A stretch of 43,947 nucleotides of DNA, from positions 1-43,947 of the forward strand of contig CALFNL010000373.1 in assembly GCA_937902875.1 (NCBI GenBank), in the 5' to 3' direction. Shown in pieces: positions 20,950-33,071 of this stretch; position 1 is the stretch's first letter; every line of letters starts with the position of its first letter. Both the position numbers and the translations under genes were made by a program. The notes beneath the pieces are model-generated. The model was not told the origin of the DNA and made no database searches. It worked only from the letters and a program-made list of their open reading frames with translations. Source of the stretch: an uncultured Bacteroidota bacterium. Lineage in GTDB: Bacteria; Bacteroidota; Bacteroidia; Chitinophagales; Chitinophagaceae.

Positions 20950-23900
20950 TCAATGGGCCACCCTGATCCTGATCCCTTCAGAATGACTGCTGAACTCAGG
21001 AGCATACATGCATTGAATGGTTGCCACTCCCACAGAAAAGTTTCCGGAATTAGACACAAACAACGGATATTCGAATACATAAGTTCCTTTTGGAAGCCAA
21101 TTGAAGAAGAAATTGGTGCTGGCATCCCTGGTGCTTTCATAGTAACCCAAGCCTCCCTGCCATCTATAGCCGCTCAAAACATTCACTGGTTCCGTTCCTG
21201 CGGCACGCATGTCTTTCATGTGCACGTATTCCATGTCGCGGTCTGCCCTTAGTTCAATCCTCACTTTTAGCTTGTCACCGGGTTTTAGTTCGTCTCCGTC
21301 ATTTACCGGCTCAAGTACCGGCCCCCTGCTGCTGTTCGTCTCCAAGAATATTTTTTTGCTGAGTTGCAACGGCGTTGCTGAGGGGGTTATCTTGTCAAGG
21401 TATTCAAAGTATTGCCAGTAAACCGCGCCCCAGGCGGGCGGGCCTGAGCTATCTCCTGCGGATGGATTGGCTTGCGAACCAACTGTTACATGTATATTGC
21501 CCATGGCAGGTTTCACATTAGCTCCCGGAATTGTTTCGCGGAAATACCCGGTACCGGCTTCTGATCCTGAATCGGATTTGAACGTCCTTTCTCCTAGACT
21601 GATGGTTACCAATGGTTCTTTCTGCAGCCAGTTTGAGCCACCTAACAGCAAAGCATAGCAGGCATCGGCGGTGGCCTTGGTGCTGGCCCAGTTCTGCGTT
21701 TGTTTTTGTTTGAGCAACCAGGTCTTCATTTCATTCACCGACTTCATGTCTTTGGCAATTTCACCGAAAGCTTCAATGAGCAGTGACTGTATTTCTGTGG
21801 GCGCCTGGTACCAGTAATAACCTCCCCGATTCTCTTTCCAATACATTCCGAGTTCTTCATTATGCATTGCATTTTCCTTCAGCGAGGCGAGAATGGATTT
21901 CGGCGTCTTCATTTCACCTGACCTGAACAAGGCAAGAGCAATCATCCCCTGCATATAGGAGCTTTGCTGCAGCCAGAATTTTTGAGACTGACTCCTGTAA
22001 AAATTATAGGCCGCTTCCGTGCCTGCCCACAACTTTTGATCTCTGAAGAAACTCCGCATGTACAGGTATTGAATAGCGTTATTGCTCAGTTGATTCTTTT
22101 TAAGGTTGGATTTCTTCTTGAGCAGGGCGTCATAATCTTCCCTGATCCGCTTGTCCAGGTATTGCAGGGCCTTTCCTGTGATCCCTTCCCAGGCCCGGAT
22201 CTGGTTATCTGAAACCGCTTTGAGTTGCCGGAGATGGCCGATTCCTGTTAGGATATATTGGGTGATATAACGGTCATCGGGTCCACCCTTAAACCATGAA
22301 AATCCTCCGTTGGGCGATTGTAAGTCGCGCAATTTATCGAGACTTCCATTCAATTCCCTGCTCATTCGCATCATGTCTAAAAGCAATGCCAGGTTCTTTT
22401 TGCGTTCTGTTTCATTCCTGGCTTCCAGCACCCAGGGCGTTTCTTCGAGTAATACCGATTTTAAATCTGCATTCTTCTCCAGGTTTGAAAGCATGGCAGC
22501 GCTGTCAGTGGTCTTCCATTTTTCCAAAATAGTTTTGATGCGGGGAGAACTATTTGCAATGGCCGTGGCCAGCGCATTGGCATAGTAGCGATTGAAGGTC
22601 TGTTCCACACATTCATATGGAAATTCCATCAGGTAGGGCAGGGCCTGAATTGCATACCAGGCCGGGTTGGTTGTGAATTCAACGGTCAGGGAACGGTTGC
22701 TTAAAGATTGGCTTGCGCTATCGGAAGCAGTTTGAATTAGCTTCTCAAACCTGAAATCCCTGGCCGATTCCCCATTCATGGGTAATGAGAGGCTTTCAGT
22801 AACCAACATACGATTGGTCAGCACGGGCAGGATATTCTCCTCGCCATCGCTGTAATTTCCTGATTCGGCAACTATGCGATACTGTAATAGTTTGTTATAG
22901 TTGAAGGGTATTGTAATAGGAAAGTACGTGACCGTGCTCTGTCCGGCACCTATTGTGAAATACTGCACCGGAAATAGGTTCTGGAACCAGCCATCAACAG
23001 CCTGGTTGGTAGTGGCATCTATCAGTTGAAGCATTGCCTTGCCCACCATTTCCTTATCGCTGAGGTTTACGATCTTGGCACTGAATTCCAGTTTATCTCC
23101 TTCCCTTACGAAGCGTGGAGAATTGGGCTGGACCATCAGTTGTTTTGCGGTGATGATAGATTTTGTAGCATAACCGAACCCGAGGTCCTTGGTATGTGCC
23201 AATGCCATCAACTTCCATTGCGTCAGCGCCTCGGGCATCTTAAAAGAGAATTCAACGGCCCCGTCTGCACCAGTCCTCAGATCGGGGAAGAAGAAAGCCG
23301 TTTCATTGAAATTTTTTCTTACACTGATATTGGAGGGTTTCGATGGAGCTTCCTGCGGAACCTGCTCCGAAACTGCTTCAACCTGCAGCCCCGCTACCTT
23401 CCCTTGCAGTTGAGATTTTTCCATTAGTGCCGCGGCAGAATCTGCGGCAACGGCTCCATATATTATTTTCCCGTTATTTGGTTTTGCCGCCGCCATATTA
23501 CGTCTTCCATAGCCCGCAACCTCAACATTATTCCAGAATGTATTGAGTTGATCATAATTCTTTTGAAAATATCTTGCATTGTTTTCGTTCCACCATTTTT
23601 GGTTGGATTGAACGCTGGCGAAACTATTTTGTGCAGACCAGTAATGCCAGCCTGCATATTCATTCCAAATGCCCGGCTTTTCCCAGCCATGGGGCCTAAA
23701 CTGATCCAATGAAGCGTCGTACATGGCCGCGAGTAGTTCGGCTGCCAGTTTCTCGCCCTTGTTACCACTTATCCTGAGTTTCCATTTTTCCAGGCTTCCG
23801 GGTTCCAGTTTGTCCCGCACAGTCTCGAAGCTGATAGAAAGTTCCCTGTTTGTCCAAGGAACCGAAACATCCCATCTGTTGCTATAAAAGCGATTGTCTT

Positions 23901-26900
23901 TTACGAAGAATTGCCATATGCCAAATCCACCACGATCTTCCTCCGTAACCGGGTATTCGAAATATTTCTTTTCGCGATTCAGCGTAATAAATTCATATTC
24001 CCCCCGGGCCTCATTTTGTTCTTGCGGTTTTTCTGTTTGCAGAATCATAAAGAGGTTATCAGCGCCGGTGCCGGTCAGGAACCTGGCCTTCTCGCCTGGC
24101 TGGGCTTCATCCTGAATGGCTGTATTCCACGAATAAGTTGGAGCGGGAGTGCCAGGGTCTTTCTGTTCATACAACTGGAAATATTCAACGGCCTTCACTT
24201 CTTCACCATAACGGTCATGGGCAATGGCTTCAGCTATATACCAGCCTTGTAGGAGCGCGACGCGTGGAATATTGAATCCCGTGGCCCGGGAAGTGTTCAG
24301 GGTATCACTAAAAACCGGTTTCCCCTTTTCCCAGGTGAGCGGATCGGTCTCGTTCCTATATTCATCATGAGGAAAATATTTCAGAAATTCCGCTTCGCCG
24401 TACACAAATTGATCAGGATTAATCCAATATCTTTTGCGTATCAAGCGCTGCGGAACGCTCAATGGATAGACATGGAGTTCCACTTTTGCCGGTTCAGATT
24501 CACCGGCCAGGTTCTTGCTTGAAACCGCGATATTCCTGAAGCTATCTACATCAAGAATACCTTTTTTAGGCAATCGCAATTGCAGGACCAGAGATATATA
24601 ACCCACAGGCACAAGCGCGGAGGCGCTCCGGGTTTCGCCGTTGATATCGGTAACATCGGCTTCCACCGTGTAGTCAAACACAGGATCCAGTTGCTGCGCC
24701 ACTGACAGATCGGGTATGGCCGGGAATTGAATCTGGAATTTCCCGGCAGAATCGGTGATGGTCTTGCCATTTGTAATTTCCATTGTTGAAGTCCGCGGCA
24801 TGCCCCTGCGGCTATACAGCCAGGGATAAACGAATCTTGCCTTCCTGGAGACGTGGTATTTTACCTGAGCTCCGTCGAGGTTATTTCCCGCATAGGCGCG
24901 GGCATATCCTGTAATGGTAACTGTATCATTCACGCGATAACTGCCCTTCAGCTTTTCCAATTCAACTTGGAATTTTGGCCGCTTGTATTCTTCAACCGAA
25001 AAATCCAGTTGGCTGTTTGTATATTCTGGTATGTTAATCTGGAAGGCTCCATGCAAGACATTCTGCGGAAGCCTGAACTGACCGTGAAAGGATCCAAATT
25101 CATTGAAGCTCACGTACACCGAATCAATGGTCTGGCCATTCGCGTCGAGCAAATCAACTTCAATGCTGTCTTTTGAACGAATAATCCTGGGTTTATGAGT
25201 GATGGAATCTTTTGTGATCCCAATTCCTTTATAAAATAGCAGTTGGCCGGCACGGTAAATACTCCGGTCGGCAAAGAGGTACACCCTGGCGTTCTTTTGC
25301 TCATAGTTTTTCGCTGTCAATTGGTCAGAAGGGTCTCTGTAATAAAACAGGCTGTATTGATAATCATCCATGAATAAATGGTCGTTCTCCCAGTTTATTT
25401 CGAGCCTGATATTTCGCTGCGATTTGGATTTTGACTGAATCCTGAAAAAGCCATTGCTGTCGGCAGTCAGGTTCTCCGCTTTTTGAAGTGAATTCTTCCT
25501 GTTGTTGTAGTCATATTGCAGGGACCATATCTGTATGGCGGCATTTGACAAGGGTTTGCCCGTTTCCCGGTGCAATGCAAAATAATCATTACCGTTGCTG
25601 GTGTAGCTGATATTGGACACATAGAAATATTGAATGGCCAATGGATTTTTTTCAAGGTTGAAATCAGCTGTTGCACTAGTGAGCAGCGCGTATTCCCCTA
25701 CTGGTAATGGATCAATTTTTATTTCCACGCTATGGCTTCGAAAATCGTTGGAAGGAGGCAGGGCTTGTTGCCAACTGCGAATTGGAGAAAGAGACTGGAG
25801 TTTTTTCCAATAGGCTTCGTCACTACGATTTTGCAATTGGTCTTTCAGCGATTTGTTTAGTTTGATCAGGCGCAGGTAGAGCGTATTAAAGTTATTGTAA
25901 CTAACGAGTGTCCGAAAGGGCTGGTCCGGCAGATTCACTTTTTCTGTTTGCAATTGTGCCGATGGCCTCAATATCTGGCTCAACAGGTTTTGGCAATTGA
26001 TGGCTCCTTCCGTTTCTGGTAAATTTCGAATGGTTTTTTCACAAATTTCCTTTGCAATACGATATGCGTATTTGTAACGGTCATCGCCTTTCGCAGGATC
26101 ATAAGCTCCTCCTTTTTCAAAATAAAATTGTGCCAGCAGGCTCCAGGCCTGGGAAGCGGCTGGCTGATTTTGATATTGGGTGGTCAGGTGATCCAGTGCA
26201 TCACGGTATAGCTCGTCTTTACCGGGCATAACGGCATATTGTTTCATGAATTGAAGGCGCAACAGGTCTGCGTCCAAAAGCGCGTCCGTGTTGGCATCAT
26301 GCAGGTGAAATGCCAGCAGGTTCTGGTAAATGAGCAGCGCCTTGTGGAGGAGCGAAGCCGAATCACTGGTGGCAAAATGTTGTTGCACGAAATCGACAGC
26401 TGGTTCGAAAGCCCATTTCTGATCGATCTGGAATGCAAATGCGGGTTTGGTGATATCTCTTTCGTCATTTTGAAAATAGGTGAGGGCACGGTGAGCCAGC
26501 AAATCGTATAATGTGGGTCGCAGGTAACGCGCATTGCCCTTGAGAATAATGGGGTCAAAGGGAGCCAGGGGTTTCAGTTGAAGCAGATTTTCTTCTTGTA
26601 TCGATTGCAAGTAAAGCTCGCCAATCTTGCTATGGAAGTCTTCTATGCCCCAGGTGGCGATATCTTCTTTGCTGAACTGGCTCGTTTGGGTTCTGCCATA
26701 TAATTTCCAGCGGTTGTTTTGAAAATAATTCCAATACATTTCTGCCGCCAGCGAATTGAGAATGGATTTCGCCGGTTCCCTGGCCGACTGTATTTCCTTT
26801 TCAATTTTCCGTATGTTCTTCCCGGCGCCATTTTCCTCAAGGTTTTGTTCCAGGTTTAACTGGTATAACAAGGCCTTGATCAGTTGTGCTTCGTTCTTTT

Positions 26901-27138
26901 CCTTCTTAGCCTTTTCATATATTTTATTAACCTCGCTGAGCGCCGATTTATTCAATCCTTTTTCCAGGATGAGCCGATCAATCTTTTTCCAGGCGCTGTC
27001 ATAGCCTGTCATTCTGGTCTGCGCGCCTGCGTCGCCAGCCAGGAGGCTGAAGAATAGAAGGAGGCCGGTGCAGATTCTGACCAGGGTCTTGCTGGAAATC
27101 ATCATTTCAATATTTGTTGGGTTCATCTTCCTGTTCAT
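20950..27138 (-). CDS. Alpha-2-macroglobulin family protein (Bacteroidota type) with SusC-plug-like segment
   Basis: Very large exported protein of 2062 residues. A signal peptide (about residues 14-40, ending DAGAQ) suggests the real start may be Met12 or Met13 rather than Met1. Residues ~40-400 are helical and repeat-like. Macroglobulin beta domains follow, with the MG2 hallmark RVYLFADRSIYRAGQLLFYKG near 630. The A2M core (FFFPDLRTGADG...MPEALTQWKLMALAHT) is near 1275-1320, and the thioester motif C1510-V-E-Q1513 is intact. An alpha-toroid and a C-terminal MG domain follow. Such proteins trap proteases through the thioester in the periplasm or on the surface. Residues 1206-1256 resemble a TonB receptor plug start, an oddity. 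No pbpC neighbour is present. Confidence 0.92.
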   Translation of the reverse strand: MNRKMNPTNIEMMISSKTLVRICTGLLLFFSLLAGDAGAQTRMTGYDSAWKKIDRLILEKGLNKSALSEVNKIYEKAKKEKNEAQLIKALLYQLNLEQNLEENGAGKNIRKIEKEIQSAREPAKSILNSLAAEMYWNYFQNNRWKLYGRTQTSQFSKEDIATWGIEDFHSKIGELYLQSIQEENLLQLKPLAPFDPIILKGNARYLRPTLYDLLAHRALTYFQNDERDITKPAFAFQIDQKWAFEPAVDFVQQHFATSDSASLLHKALLIYQNLLAFHLHDANTDALLDADLLRLQFMKQYAVMPGKDELYRDALDHLTTQYQNQPAASQAWSLLAQFYFEKGGAYDPAKGDDRYKYAYRIAKEICEKTIRNLPETEGAINCQNLLSQILRPSAQLQTEKVNLPDQPFRTLVSYNNFNTLYLRLIKLNKSLKDQLQNRSDEAYWKKLQSLSPIRSWQQALPPSNDFRSHSVEIKIDPLPVGEYALLTSATADFNLEKNPLAIQYFYVSNISYTSNGNDYFALHRETGKPLSNAAIQIWSLQYDYNNRKNSLQKAENLTADSNGFFRIQSKSKSQRNIRLEINWENDHLFMDDYQYSLFYYRDPSDQLTAKNYEQKNARVYLFADRSIYRAGQLLFYKGIGITKDSITHKPRIIRSKDSIEVDLLDANGQTIDSVYVSFNEFGSFHGQFRLPQNVLHGAFQINIPEYTNSQLDFSVEEYKRPKFQVELEKLKGSYRVNDTVTITGYARAYAGNNLDGAQVKYHVSRKARFVYPWLYSRRGMPRTSTMEITNGKTITDSAGKFQIQFPAIPDLSVAQQLDPVFDYTVEADVTDINGETRSASALVPVGYISLVLQLRLPKKGILDVDSFRNIAVSSKNLAGESEPAKVELHVYPLSVPQRLIRKRYWINPDQFVYGEAEFLKYFPHDEYRNETDPLTWEKGKPVFSDTLNTSRATGFNIPRVALLQGWYIAEAIAHDRYGEEVKAVEYFQLYEQKDPGTPAPTYSWNTAIQDEAQPGEKARFLTGTGADNLFMILQTEKPQEQNEARGEYEFITLNREKKYFEYPVTEEDRGGFGIWQFFVKDNRFYSNRWDVSVPWTNRELSISFETVRDKLEPGSLEKWKLRISGNKGEKLAAELLAAMYDASLDQFRPHGWEKPGIWNEYAGWHYWSAQNSFASVQSNQKWWNENNARYFQKNYDQLNTFWNNVEVAGYGRRNMAAAKPNNGKIIYGAVAADSAAALMEKSQLQGKVAGLQVEAVSEQVPQEAPSKPSNISVRKNFNETAFFFPDLRTGADGAVEFSFKMPEALTQWKLMALAHTKDLGFGYATKSIITAKQLMVQPNSPRFVREGDKLEFSAKIVNLSDKEMVGKAMLQLIDATTNQAVDGWFQNLFPVQYFTIGAGQSTVTYFPITIPFNYNKLLQYRIVAESGNYSDGEENILPVLTNRMLVTESLSLPMNGESARDFRFEKLIQTASDSASQSLSNRSLTVEFTTNPAWYAIQALPYLMEFPYECVEQTFNRYYANALATAIANSSPRIKTILEKWKTTDSAAMLSNLEKNADLKSVLLEETPWVLEARNETERKKNLALLLDMMRMSRELNGSLDKLRDLQSPNGGFSWFKGGPDDRYITQYILTGIGHLRQLKAVSDNQIRAWEGITGKALQYLDKRIREDYDALLKKKSNLKKNQLSNNAIQYLYMRSFFRDQKLWAGTEAAYNFYRSQSQKFWLQQSSYMQGMIALALFRSGEMKTPKSILASLKENAMHNEELGMYWKENRGGYYWYQAPTEIQSLLIEAFGEIAKDMKSVNEMKTWLLKQKQTQNWASTKATADACYALLLGGSNWLQKEPLVTISLGERTFKSDSGSEAGTGYFRETIPGANVKPAMGNIHVTVGSQANPSAGDSSGPPAWGAVYWQYFEYLDKITPSATPLQLSKKIFLETNSSRGPVLEPVNDGDELKPGDKLKVRIELRADRDMEYVHMKDMRAAGTEPVNVLSGYRWQGGLGYYESTRDASTNFFFNWLPKGTYVFEYPLFVSNSGNFSVGVATIQCMYAPEFSSHSEGIRIRVAH

Positions 27139-30259: not shown

Positions 30260-30721
30260 TCATTCCATGGTGATCTTGCTATCCCGGTCGATATTGGTTC
30301 GGGGATCGAAGCGGAAATCGTAGAACCTGGCATCGCCGGCTTTTCCTTCAATCTTTTCGGTGGACCTTCCCATTTCAAGACCTGCATTGTCAAAAGTCTT
30401 ACAGGTAATATTTCCAATAAAGTTTTTTTGGAAGATAAAATAGACGCTTAAGAGATTATCCTTTCCTTCCTTGTCGTTGGCAAGCCTTACCTGTCCGAGT
30501 TCGATGCCTTTTTGCTTCAGGCTGTCTGAAACCTGAATGCCCACGCGAAATGCATTTTCAACGCCGCTACTCACGCCATGCACCACCTCTCCCACAACTT
30601 CGCCTGCTTTCTGGCCCGCGCTATTTAGCTTTTCCTTCACGGAATGGCCCGAGCAGGCAGGCATCGCGGCCAGGAAAATAATACCTGCAAATAAATTCTT
30701 TATCCCGCAAAGATTATTCAT
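30260..30721 (-). CDS. Putative lipoprotein, unknown function
   Basis: Small exported protein, 153 residues from the chosen start. The start MNNLCGIKN at 30721 gives a signal with a possible lipobox MPAC near residue 22; an ATG at 30736 would lengthen the signal. The start codon overlaps the end of maeB by eight bases (ATGAATAA arrangement), indicating translational coupling. The mature part begins with an amphipathic helical region rich in Val/Gly ([21 protein letters not shown]) and ends with a beta-rich domain closing [19 protein letters not shown] do not recognise a family. Confidence 0.75.
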
Positions 30722-33071
30722 GCTGAACATCTGCATCTTTTGTTTTTTTGAGTCCTTTCCACCAGGGAGATTTTTTTACGGCCTCCTGGGTATCGGCTCC
30801 CGTTTTGTGCTGGGCATCCAACACGGAGATGAGCACCATATTGATGATGCTTCTGACCGAGCTTCCCAGTTGTAAGATATGTACTGGTCTTTTCAACCCC
30901 AATAGTACGGGGCCGATGGCATCAAAATGACCCACTTCCTGCAGCAGGTTGTAAGCGATATTACCGGCGCTCAGGTTGGGGAAGATCAGCGTGTTTACGT
31001 CGCCATGAACCAATTCACTGAACGGATAATTATCTCTCAGGATTTCTTTGTTGAAAGCCACAATGCCCTGCATTTCGCCGTCCACAATGAGACCAGGATT
31101 TTTTTCTTTAACAATTTCCCTGGCCCTGCGCACCAAAATTGCTTCGGGAGTATTACTGGTACCGAAGTTGGAATAGCTGAGCATGGCGATGCGCGGCGTG
31201 ATGCCAAACATGCGCACTTCATTGGCCACCATAAGGGTTATGTCTGCCAATTCTTCGGAGCTGGGATTAAAATTCACAGTAGTATCTGCCAGGAAAAGTG
31301 GGCCTTGTTTGGTGAGCATGATATACATGCCGGCAATATTTTTAACTCCCTTTTCCGTGCCAATCACCTGCAGGGCCGGCCTCACGGTCTCCGGATAATT
31401 ACGGGTGAGTCCTCCAATCACGGCATCCGCCTCACCAGTTTCCAGCATCATGCAGGCAAAGCGTATTCGGTCCCTCATAGATTTGTAGGCTTCGTATTGG
31501 TTAACACCGCGACGCTGGCGTTTCTTAAAATAAAGATCGGCGAATTCCTGCCTCTTGGATTCCAATTCGTCGGCACGCGGATCTATTATAGGAATACTTT
31601 CGAGGTCAATATTATTCGTCTCCGCCAGCATCCTGATCTTCCTTTCTTCACCTAACAATATGGGATAAGCGATACCATCGTCCAGCACTATCTGCGCCGC
31701 TTTCAGGATCTTCACGTTGTCGGCTTCGGCAAAAACCACTCGTTTGGGATCTTTTCTGGCCTTATTCCCAATCACGCGGAACAATTGGTTGTCATTGCCC
31801 AGTCGCCGGTCCAGTTCGGCACGGTACCGGTTCCAGTCATCGATCGGGTGCTTGGCCACGCCGCTTTCCATGGCCGCGCGGGCCACGGCAGGGGATACCA
31901 CGGAAATCAACCGCGGGTCCAGTGGTTTTGGAATGATGTAATTGGGGCCGAATGAAATGGTTTTCTCATTGTATGCCATATTCACCATGTCGGGAACGGG
32001 CTTGCGGGCGAGTTCGGCTAAAGCCTTCACCGCGGCCATCTTCATGGTCTCATTGATCTGGGTTGCCCTCACATCCAGGGCTCCCCTGAATATATAAGGG
32101 AATCCTAAAACATTATTTACCTGGTTTGGATAATCGCTCCTGCCCGTGGCCATGATGATATCCTTACGGACAGCAGTAGCTGCTTCCCAGCTAATTTCCG
32201 GATCGGGATTGGCCATCGCAAATACGATGGGGTTTTTGGCCATCGACTTCACCATTTCGGGAGTGATCGTATTGCCCGCGCTCAATCCTATGAACACGTC
32301 GGCGCCTTTCATGGCCTCTTCGAGACTGATATCTTTTTTGCGCGTGGTTGCAAAATGGAGCCTTGTCTCGTCCAGCCCCGGCCTCTCCTGGTGCAGAACT
32401 CCTTTTCGGTCGAACAATAAGAAATTTTCATTCTTCGCACCCAGCGCCTCGTACAAAAGCACACAGGCAATAGCGGCCGCGCCGGCTCCGTTTACCACAA
32501 ACCTTACCTTATCAATTTTCTTTCCCTGCAGCTCCAGCGCATTCAGCAGGGCGGCCGAACTGATGATGGCCGTACCATGCTGGTCGTCGTGCATCACCGG
32601 AATATTCATGGTTTCTTTCAGCTTCTTTTCAATATAAAAACATTCCGGCGCCTTGATATCCTCCAGGTTTATACCGCCAAATGTGGGCTCGAGCGATTTT
32701 ACTATGCGAACAAATTGATCAGGATCCTTCTCGTTGATTTCAATATCAAATACATCTATATCGGCGAATATCTTGAAAAGAACGGCTTTTCCTTCCATAA
32801 CAGGTTTGCCTGCTTCAGGACCAATATCCCCCAATCCCAAAACGGCCGTGCCATTGCTGATTACGGCCACCAGGTTTCCCTTGGCAGTGTATTTGTAAAC
32901 GGATTCGGGGTTTTCCTGAATTTCCTTGCAAGGCACAGCTACGCCGGGAGAATAAGCCAATGACAGGTCTCTTTGCGTTTTGGCCTCTTTGGTGGGTACA
33001 ACTTCAATCTTTCCGGGCCTTCCTTTGGAATGGTATTCCAAAGCCTGCTGTTTGCGCAATTCATTTTGCAT
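30714..33071 (-). CDS. maeB: NADP-dependent malic enzyme with phosphotransacetylase-like domain
   Basis: Hybrid malic enzyme of 785 residues, converting malate to pyruvate with release of CO2 and NADPH. The N-terminal malic domain has [25 protein letters not shown] and [11 protein letters not shown], all strongly conserved. The NAD(P)-binding domain follows with [12 protein letters not shown]. From residue ~425 to the end lies a phosphotransacetylase-like domain, known in MaeB as a regulatory part that binds acetyl-CoA and is not itself an active acetyltransferase. It is divergent from the M16 peptidase gene and overlaps the lipoprotein gene downstream. Confidence 0.96.

Follow-up and report, generated by a model that had tools for sequence, protein, structure and literature searches.

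The window analysed here, the whole 43,947-nucleotide stretch of contig CALFNL010000373.1 from an uncultured bacterium of the Chitinophagaceae (Bacteroidota), encodes an alpha-2-macroglobulin (A2M) of 2062 residues (20950..27138, minus strand) whose bait region resembles the plug of a TonB-dependent receptor. Comparison with its relatives across the Bacteroidota indicates that many of the baits carry, in some cases as mosaics, pieces resembling segments of self envelope proteins that face the periplasm, and such a self-protein-like bait suggests a trap baited with likenesses of the targets of the attacking protease. We assign a probability slightly under one half (about 0.48) to the reading that the baits of two A2M families, built from pieces or whole modules resembling periplasm-facing envelope proteins of the cell itself, act as decoys. 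Bait anatomy and mosaic composition were observed directly, and the decoy function is what we infer from them.

Pfam domains and a fold match assign the window protein to the A2M family, and by its sequence it is a member with a thioester motif. Three domains were found above cut-off and in order, namely, MG2 (aa 618-710, 25009..25287; E 5.6e-15), the A2M domain PF00207, which is the macroglobulin domain following the bait (aa 1280-1365, 23044..23301; E 5.2e-20), and bMG10 (aa 1925-2048, 20995..21366; E 4.6e-34), while the match to the bait region domain A2M_BRD (aa 1009-1143, 23710..24114) reached 20.2 bits, slightly below the cut-off of 22.7. The CxEQ thioester motif (Type I) is present as CVEQ at aa 1510-1513 (22600..22611). 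As judged by eye from the sequence, residues 1-40 (27019..27138) form a probable Sec signal peptide without lipobox, and the protein is probably periplasmic; a lipobox-like motif was noticed in 6 of 214 homologues. All these features lie on the minus strand. Among the scanned neighbours, three ORFs have no assigned family; the others are housekeeping genes or encode an MlaE permease and peptidases of families M90 (a metallopeptidase) and M16. Of note, a single ORF (30714-33071, minus strand) combines malic enzyme and phosphate acetyltransferase domains, an ordinary arrangement.

The plug-like stretch sits within the A2M bait region, as the earlier note had proposed. In an AlphaFold2 model of aa 985-1420 based on 57 sequences, confident macroglobulin domains flank aa 1199-1274 (23317..23544, minus strand), where pLDDT falls below 50; this low score fits disorder, but the unalignable nature of the stretch could also cause it. 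A Foldseek search with the same segment retrieved native E. coli A2M (5a42) as the best match (E 6e-15), along with other A2M and complement chains. Human A2M carries its bait at the same place, the window protein from aa 1267 onward aligning with the human protein from residue 725 onward (6tav chain A), a residue that marks the end of the human bait on its C-terminal side. Predicted disorder, fold match and human alignment together identify aa 1205-1253 as bait region, and the region is hypervariable among homologues. The motifs formerly assigned to residues 1206-1256 are all present, with a numbering off by 1-3 residues. They consist of a TonB-box-like VEVAGYG (aa 1205-1211, 23506..23526), the sequence GAVAADSAAAL (aa 1228-1238, 23425..23457), which is the least convincing portion of the likeness, and the plug signature LQGKVAGLQV (aa 1244-1253, 23380..23409), whose residues 1-9 are the same as in L241, a receptor of the same genome. 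These minus-strand elements follow the order and approximate spacing of a receptor plug, and the TonB box is degenerate, with VEVAG in place of VVVVG.

Generic models miss this bait: Pfam Plug (PF07715) at its gathering score and NCBIfam gave no match either for the window protein or for the bait alone. When six whole genomes were searched with the bait, nothing clearly identifiable as a receptor came up at E≤10; the hits consisted of a weak match to a 1012-aa ORF (E 1.17) and one to a 67-aa ORF. By contrast with the generic profiles, a plug HMM built from ten SusC-type receptors encoded in the genome that carries the window detected the bait with E=9.8e-5 among 230 baits, at 17.5 bits, a score reached by none of 19,727 shuffles (best 10.5). 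An independent HMM, built from 22 SusC proteins of other genomes, gave 14.7 bits, and none of 19,763 shuffles scored higher (best 11.5). The resemblance to a TonB-receptor plug announced in the earlier note is thus confirmed as real and beyond chance at the level of the sequence. Its further suggestion of a derivation from a TonB receptor stands with regard to likeness only; as the window bait and L241 share 12 identical residues with the same codon at 2 of them, a recent DNA copy from the own receptor is unsupported. Taken alone, the window bait is a modest finding, which becomes strong together with the rest of the family.

Homologues were gathered by searching genome collections starting from the window A2M, and the stretch between conserved flanks was taken as the bait. 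The loci taken were 90 from 220 genomes matched, 69 from 127 in another search, and all 80 of a third. They yielded 239 ORFs in which both flanks are present, three others with a single flank being excluded; merging identical ORFs brought the 239 to 230, and merging 8 duplicate baits left 222 distinct ones. Since the loci are the best matches of window-centred searches, the sample is weighted to the window's own A2M family. The CxEQ motif is present in 202 of these 222 first-family A2Ms; the 20 others, among them L214, L215, L220, L222, L230, L232, L235, L236, L238 and L239, do not show it in the searched stretch, and may be devoid of the thioester or misplaced by the search. The baits are mostly short (65-121 residues, median 83, for 99 measured) and unalignable across the set, with mean column identities of 9% and 12%.

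A k-mer count free of prior assumption, performed on 99 of 110 loci, ranked EVVVT, VVVVG, VVVGY and VVGYG among the top recurrent 5-mers, with the 6-mer VVVGYG found in 8 of the 99 baits for a maximum of 2 in shuffles. The top recurrent 4-mer among these 99 baits, EVVV, occurs in 45 of the 222 distinct baits, and the DEVVV-like TonB box pattern [DNESQ]EVVV[VTI][GA] in 29. At E≤0.1, the plug HMM detected 64 of 230 baits. Among the controls it detected a single reversed bait out of 230 and nothing in 690 body segments or 690 shuffles, and a barrel HMM at the same threshold detected none of the 230 baits. With the NCBIfam SusC/RagA model, 15 of 115 baits matched at E≤0.1, the best at 3.8e-24. Segments similar to that of the window are present in the baits of many homologues, and complete plugs occupy the same place in others. 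Neither of the outcomes that the earlier note named as refuting, lack of a significant plug-profile score or of a similar segment in any homologue, was thus observed.

The view of a plug insert turned out to be too narrow, as the same place also hosts likenesses of TonB, OmpA-family proteins, LptD and GldN, which makes the window one case of an envelope-protein-like bait. With blastp against an envelope protein library (26,642 aa) combined with the plug profile, at least one such piece was recognised in 107 of 222 baits and none in the remaining 115. In a separate count with its own thresholds, no piece was found in groups f11 (0/4), f35, f29, f48 and f2 (0/3 each) or in non-Bacteroidota (0/2). 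At E≤0.001, the envelope library was matched by 61 of 222 baits, 1 of 1110 shuffles and 0 of 1110 body segments, and the control library of other ORFs (285,792 aa) by 0 of 222 baits. At E≤0.1, 93 baits matched any envelope source versus 20 for the other ORFs, with receptors accounting for 60 baits, TonB for 16, OmpA for 12, GldN for 9 and LptD for 5. Seven ORFs (second-family A2Ms, TonB receptors and an OmpA-type protein) had been removed from the control library, which lowers its counts, and GldN and LptD had been added to the envelope library only after two single-bait searches pointed to them. Body segments matched the other ORFs in 487 of 1110 cases at 0.1, presumably through leftover A2M stretches.

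The source regions are restricted to the TonB box and plug of receptors (never the barrel), the linkers of TonB and of OmpA-family proteins, the part of LptD preceding its barrel, and GldN of the type IX secretion ring. According to their established topology, the OmpA linker, the LptD front part and GldN all face the periplasm. Every receptor match has its midpoint upstream of the plug end; in a detectability control with 30-residue pieces, barrel pieces were recovered in 121 of 264 cases and plug pieces in 120 of 132. OmpA matches fall in the linker ahead of the OmpA domain and LptD matches ahead of the LptD_2 domain, and the recurrent bait words KFTPPKIVKDEE and GxKDEGIxAPP are found in TonB, from the own genome and from relatives, before its C-terminal domain. 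When searched alone, the L090 bait matched OmpA-family proteins with 73-74% identity over about 77 residues (59% in the genome of the window itself); the match lies in the linker that connects the front part of these proteins to their OmpA domain. The L150 bait matches GldN, and that of L149 both GldN and the part of LptD preceding LptD_2. A piece reading EMFVHGE, at one point taken for another receptor class, belongs to the LptD matches. Two or three sources are combined in 11 of 222 baits, such as that of L015, which carries TonB, GldN and LptD pieces.

In some relatives, the N-terminal part of SusC-type receptors (NTE PF13715, TonB box, plug PF07715) is complete in the bait, whereas the window harbours short pieces of it. 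The function of the NTE domain of SusC is given as unknown in PMC7782687. The baits differ from these receptors in having no barrel, short ones are in addition often permuted, and the window copy is degenerate. In group f5, tentatively named Flavobacterium-like, many baits comprise an entire CarbopepD_reg domain together with the TonB box and the plug, and the module stops before the barrel would begin. Pfam reported CarbopepD_reg_2 in 19 of 115 baits and Plug in 12 (E≤0.01); in a separate search, Plug was reported in 1 of 115 (E≤0.1). The orthologous A2M baits from two congeners are 65% and 51% identical to the module of L224, and the receptors of its own genome about 35-50% over long matches. 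As the module is closer to the orthologous baits than to receptors, it is old and retained, and its origin as a recent copy of an own receptor is unsupported. A structural model of the whole-module bait of L059 has a pLDDT of 42. In group f19 (L203, L205 and L206), the bait shows a CarbopepD_reg-like domain, no recognisable TonB box, and then a proline-rich stretch.

A second A2M family adjoins the first in some Chitinophagaceae genomes (L059:2-4423, plus strand; L091 18081-22142, minus strand; L326-L357). The thioester motif reads CMEQ in L059 and L091, and CxEQ is present in 30 of 30 ORFs as first selected. Most members carry at the corresponding bait place the whole module of CarbopepD_reg domain, TonB box and plug: the plug HMM scored E≤1e-10 in 21 of 28 and E≤0.01 in 26 of 28, and the barrel HMM matched 0 of 28 at 0.01. 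For the second-family protein of L059, Pfam reported Plug with 48.3 bits (cut-off 23.9) together with CarbopepD_reg_2.

Hypervariable baits are a known feature of the A2M family, and bait content turns over fast in the present one. Of 78 independent pairs, the four whose bodies are most alike (96.8-97.5% identity) have baits that are 30-72% identical over aligned residues; L008 and L025, with bodies 96.8% identical, share 8 of 27 aligned bait residues. L015, with its three sources, and L017, in which none of these three was recognised at the same thresholds, have bodies 91.8% identical. When mapped on the body tree, OmpA pieces (12 tips) require 11 changes for a shuffled mean of 11.7, and TonB pieces (16 tips) 12 changes for 15.5. 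Plug pieces (77 tips, 42 changes versus 63 when shuffled) and full plugs (14 tips, 7 versus 13.7) are more heritable. Of the 12 short baits having both motifs, 10 have the plug motif ahead of the box, the reverse of the order in receptors, with some close kin among these baits. Bait identity is modestly higher at motif (303/633) than at non-motif (1571/4434) positions, the motifs having been picked after the baits were viewed, and pN/pS of baits is saturated, so that the test of motif versus other rates is weak.

In the A2M family, bait cleavage triggers a conformational change and covalent capture of the protease; once cut, the disordered bait is free to displace the domain bearing the thioester, which becomes exposed and binds the protease (PMC5764988). 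Under the decoy model, the bait loop would display self cut-sites on a protease trap. A protease entering the periplasm and able to cut exposed parts of TonB or its receptors, of OmpA-type proteins, of LptD or of the type IX ring would cut the bait instead; the trap would then close and the thioester bind the protease covalently, while quick bait turnover would track changing attackers. The model presumes a periplasmic site, cleavage at the pieces, a benefit to the cell and makers of such proteases. The complete domain pair of the Flavobacterium-like baits, if folded, would make a poor bait and counts against it. Going further, we tentatively propose a periplasmic immune system of Bacteroidota, in which a fast-evolving bait made of self envelope likenesses would amount to decoys integrated into a protease trap of the suicide type and record the envelope parts that foreign proteases attack.

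The chief rival to the decoy reading, which we consider rather unlikely, is self-tolerance: periplasm-exposed segments, pre-selected to resist the cell's own proteases, would be reused in the bait, which foreign proteases would still cut. The same choice of periplasm-facing regions speaks for it, and it accounts for the variety of sources, including linkers without evident value to an attacker; however, the similarity expected from it is loose, i.e. one of composition and lack of cut sites, and not one of peptides of 9-20 residues and whole modules. Neutral filling appears improbable. Under it, nearly every hydrophilic insert that keeps the frame would be accepted in the bait, with large paralogous families as donors of DNA through ectopic recombination, and the likeness would serve no function. 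Hypervariable baits, pieces gained and lost across the tree, and the abundance of TonB-receptor genes (two genomes gave 73 and 92 matches) would all suit it, but the choice of source regions makes it fail as an explanation, since barrel pieces are absent and the other-ORF library gave zero matches at E≤0.001. TonB is, moreover, much scarcer than receptors (4 to 9 TonB_C matches per genome), LptD and GldN being likewise much less numerous, residues are shared with L241 without their codons, and the reversed order of box and plug is unlike the simple decay of an insert.

The earlier note had also envisaged a docking element, and a bait TonB box could let TonB bind or pull the A2M, which would thereby be positioned at the Ton machinery or mechanically armed. 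The recurrence of EVVV argues for this, as does the mapping of the SusC TonB box to VDEVVV in PMC7782687. Nevertheless, docking to TonB accounts for the box only: that of the window is degenerate, the LQGxVAG pieces lie outside the TonB box, and no such role as a TonB box is known for the pieces from the TonB linker, OmpA, LptD or GldN. The docking claim is therefore not supported, and we regard this explanation as quite improbable. Chance likeness of a low-complexity loop could be invoked on the grounds that single pieces are short and that Pfam, NCBIfam and the six-genome search miss the window bait; it was rejected, its probability being next to nil, given the two plug profiles that no shuffle equals, the nearly blank family-wide controls with shuffles and body segments, and the library controls.

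With regard to known systems, ECAM (YfhM) of E. coli and SaA2M of Salmonella, both Type I bacterial A2Ms, likewise comprise MG domains, a disordered bait ahead of the next MG domain, and CxEQ (PMC4498604, PMC5764988). The same sources describe them as periplasmic and anchored in the inner membrane, whereas the window A2M has no visible lipobox, and as encoded often, although not always, beside the PBP1c gene, whereas none of the ten ORFs scanned around the window A2M (15573 to 36377) is a PBP gene. In what these two papers say of the ECAM and SaA2M baits, no account of self-like pieces was met. In the open PMC literature, no description linking A2M with the TonB plug or with bait mimicry was met. 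To our knowledge, envelope-protein mimicry has not been reported for the human A2M bait. In plants, immune receptors with integrated decoys have the likeness of an attacked host protein built into a defence protein. The A2M baits would be analogous to these, with no kinship, and their readout would be covalent capture of a protease. If the baits are self decoys, their survey across genomes would reveal the envelope proteins that proteases attack, and the decoy reading, if true, would offer a direct test of A2M function and a bacterial instance of decoy-based immunity.

Isolated plug pieces may also occur in other proteins: Plug-like matches were noticed on contig C1 of G625 (1806158-1806340 and 4286485-4287207) in ORFs of 149 and 398 residues, too short to hold a barrel. 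Furthermore, two large ORFs, L279 (822 residues) and L272 (888 residues), harbour a TonB C-terminal domain, and L279 additionally encodes the sequence DEVVVVGYGS.
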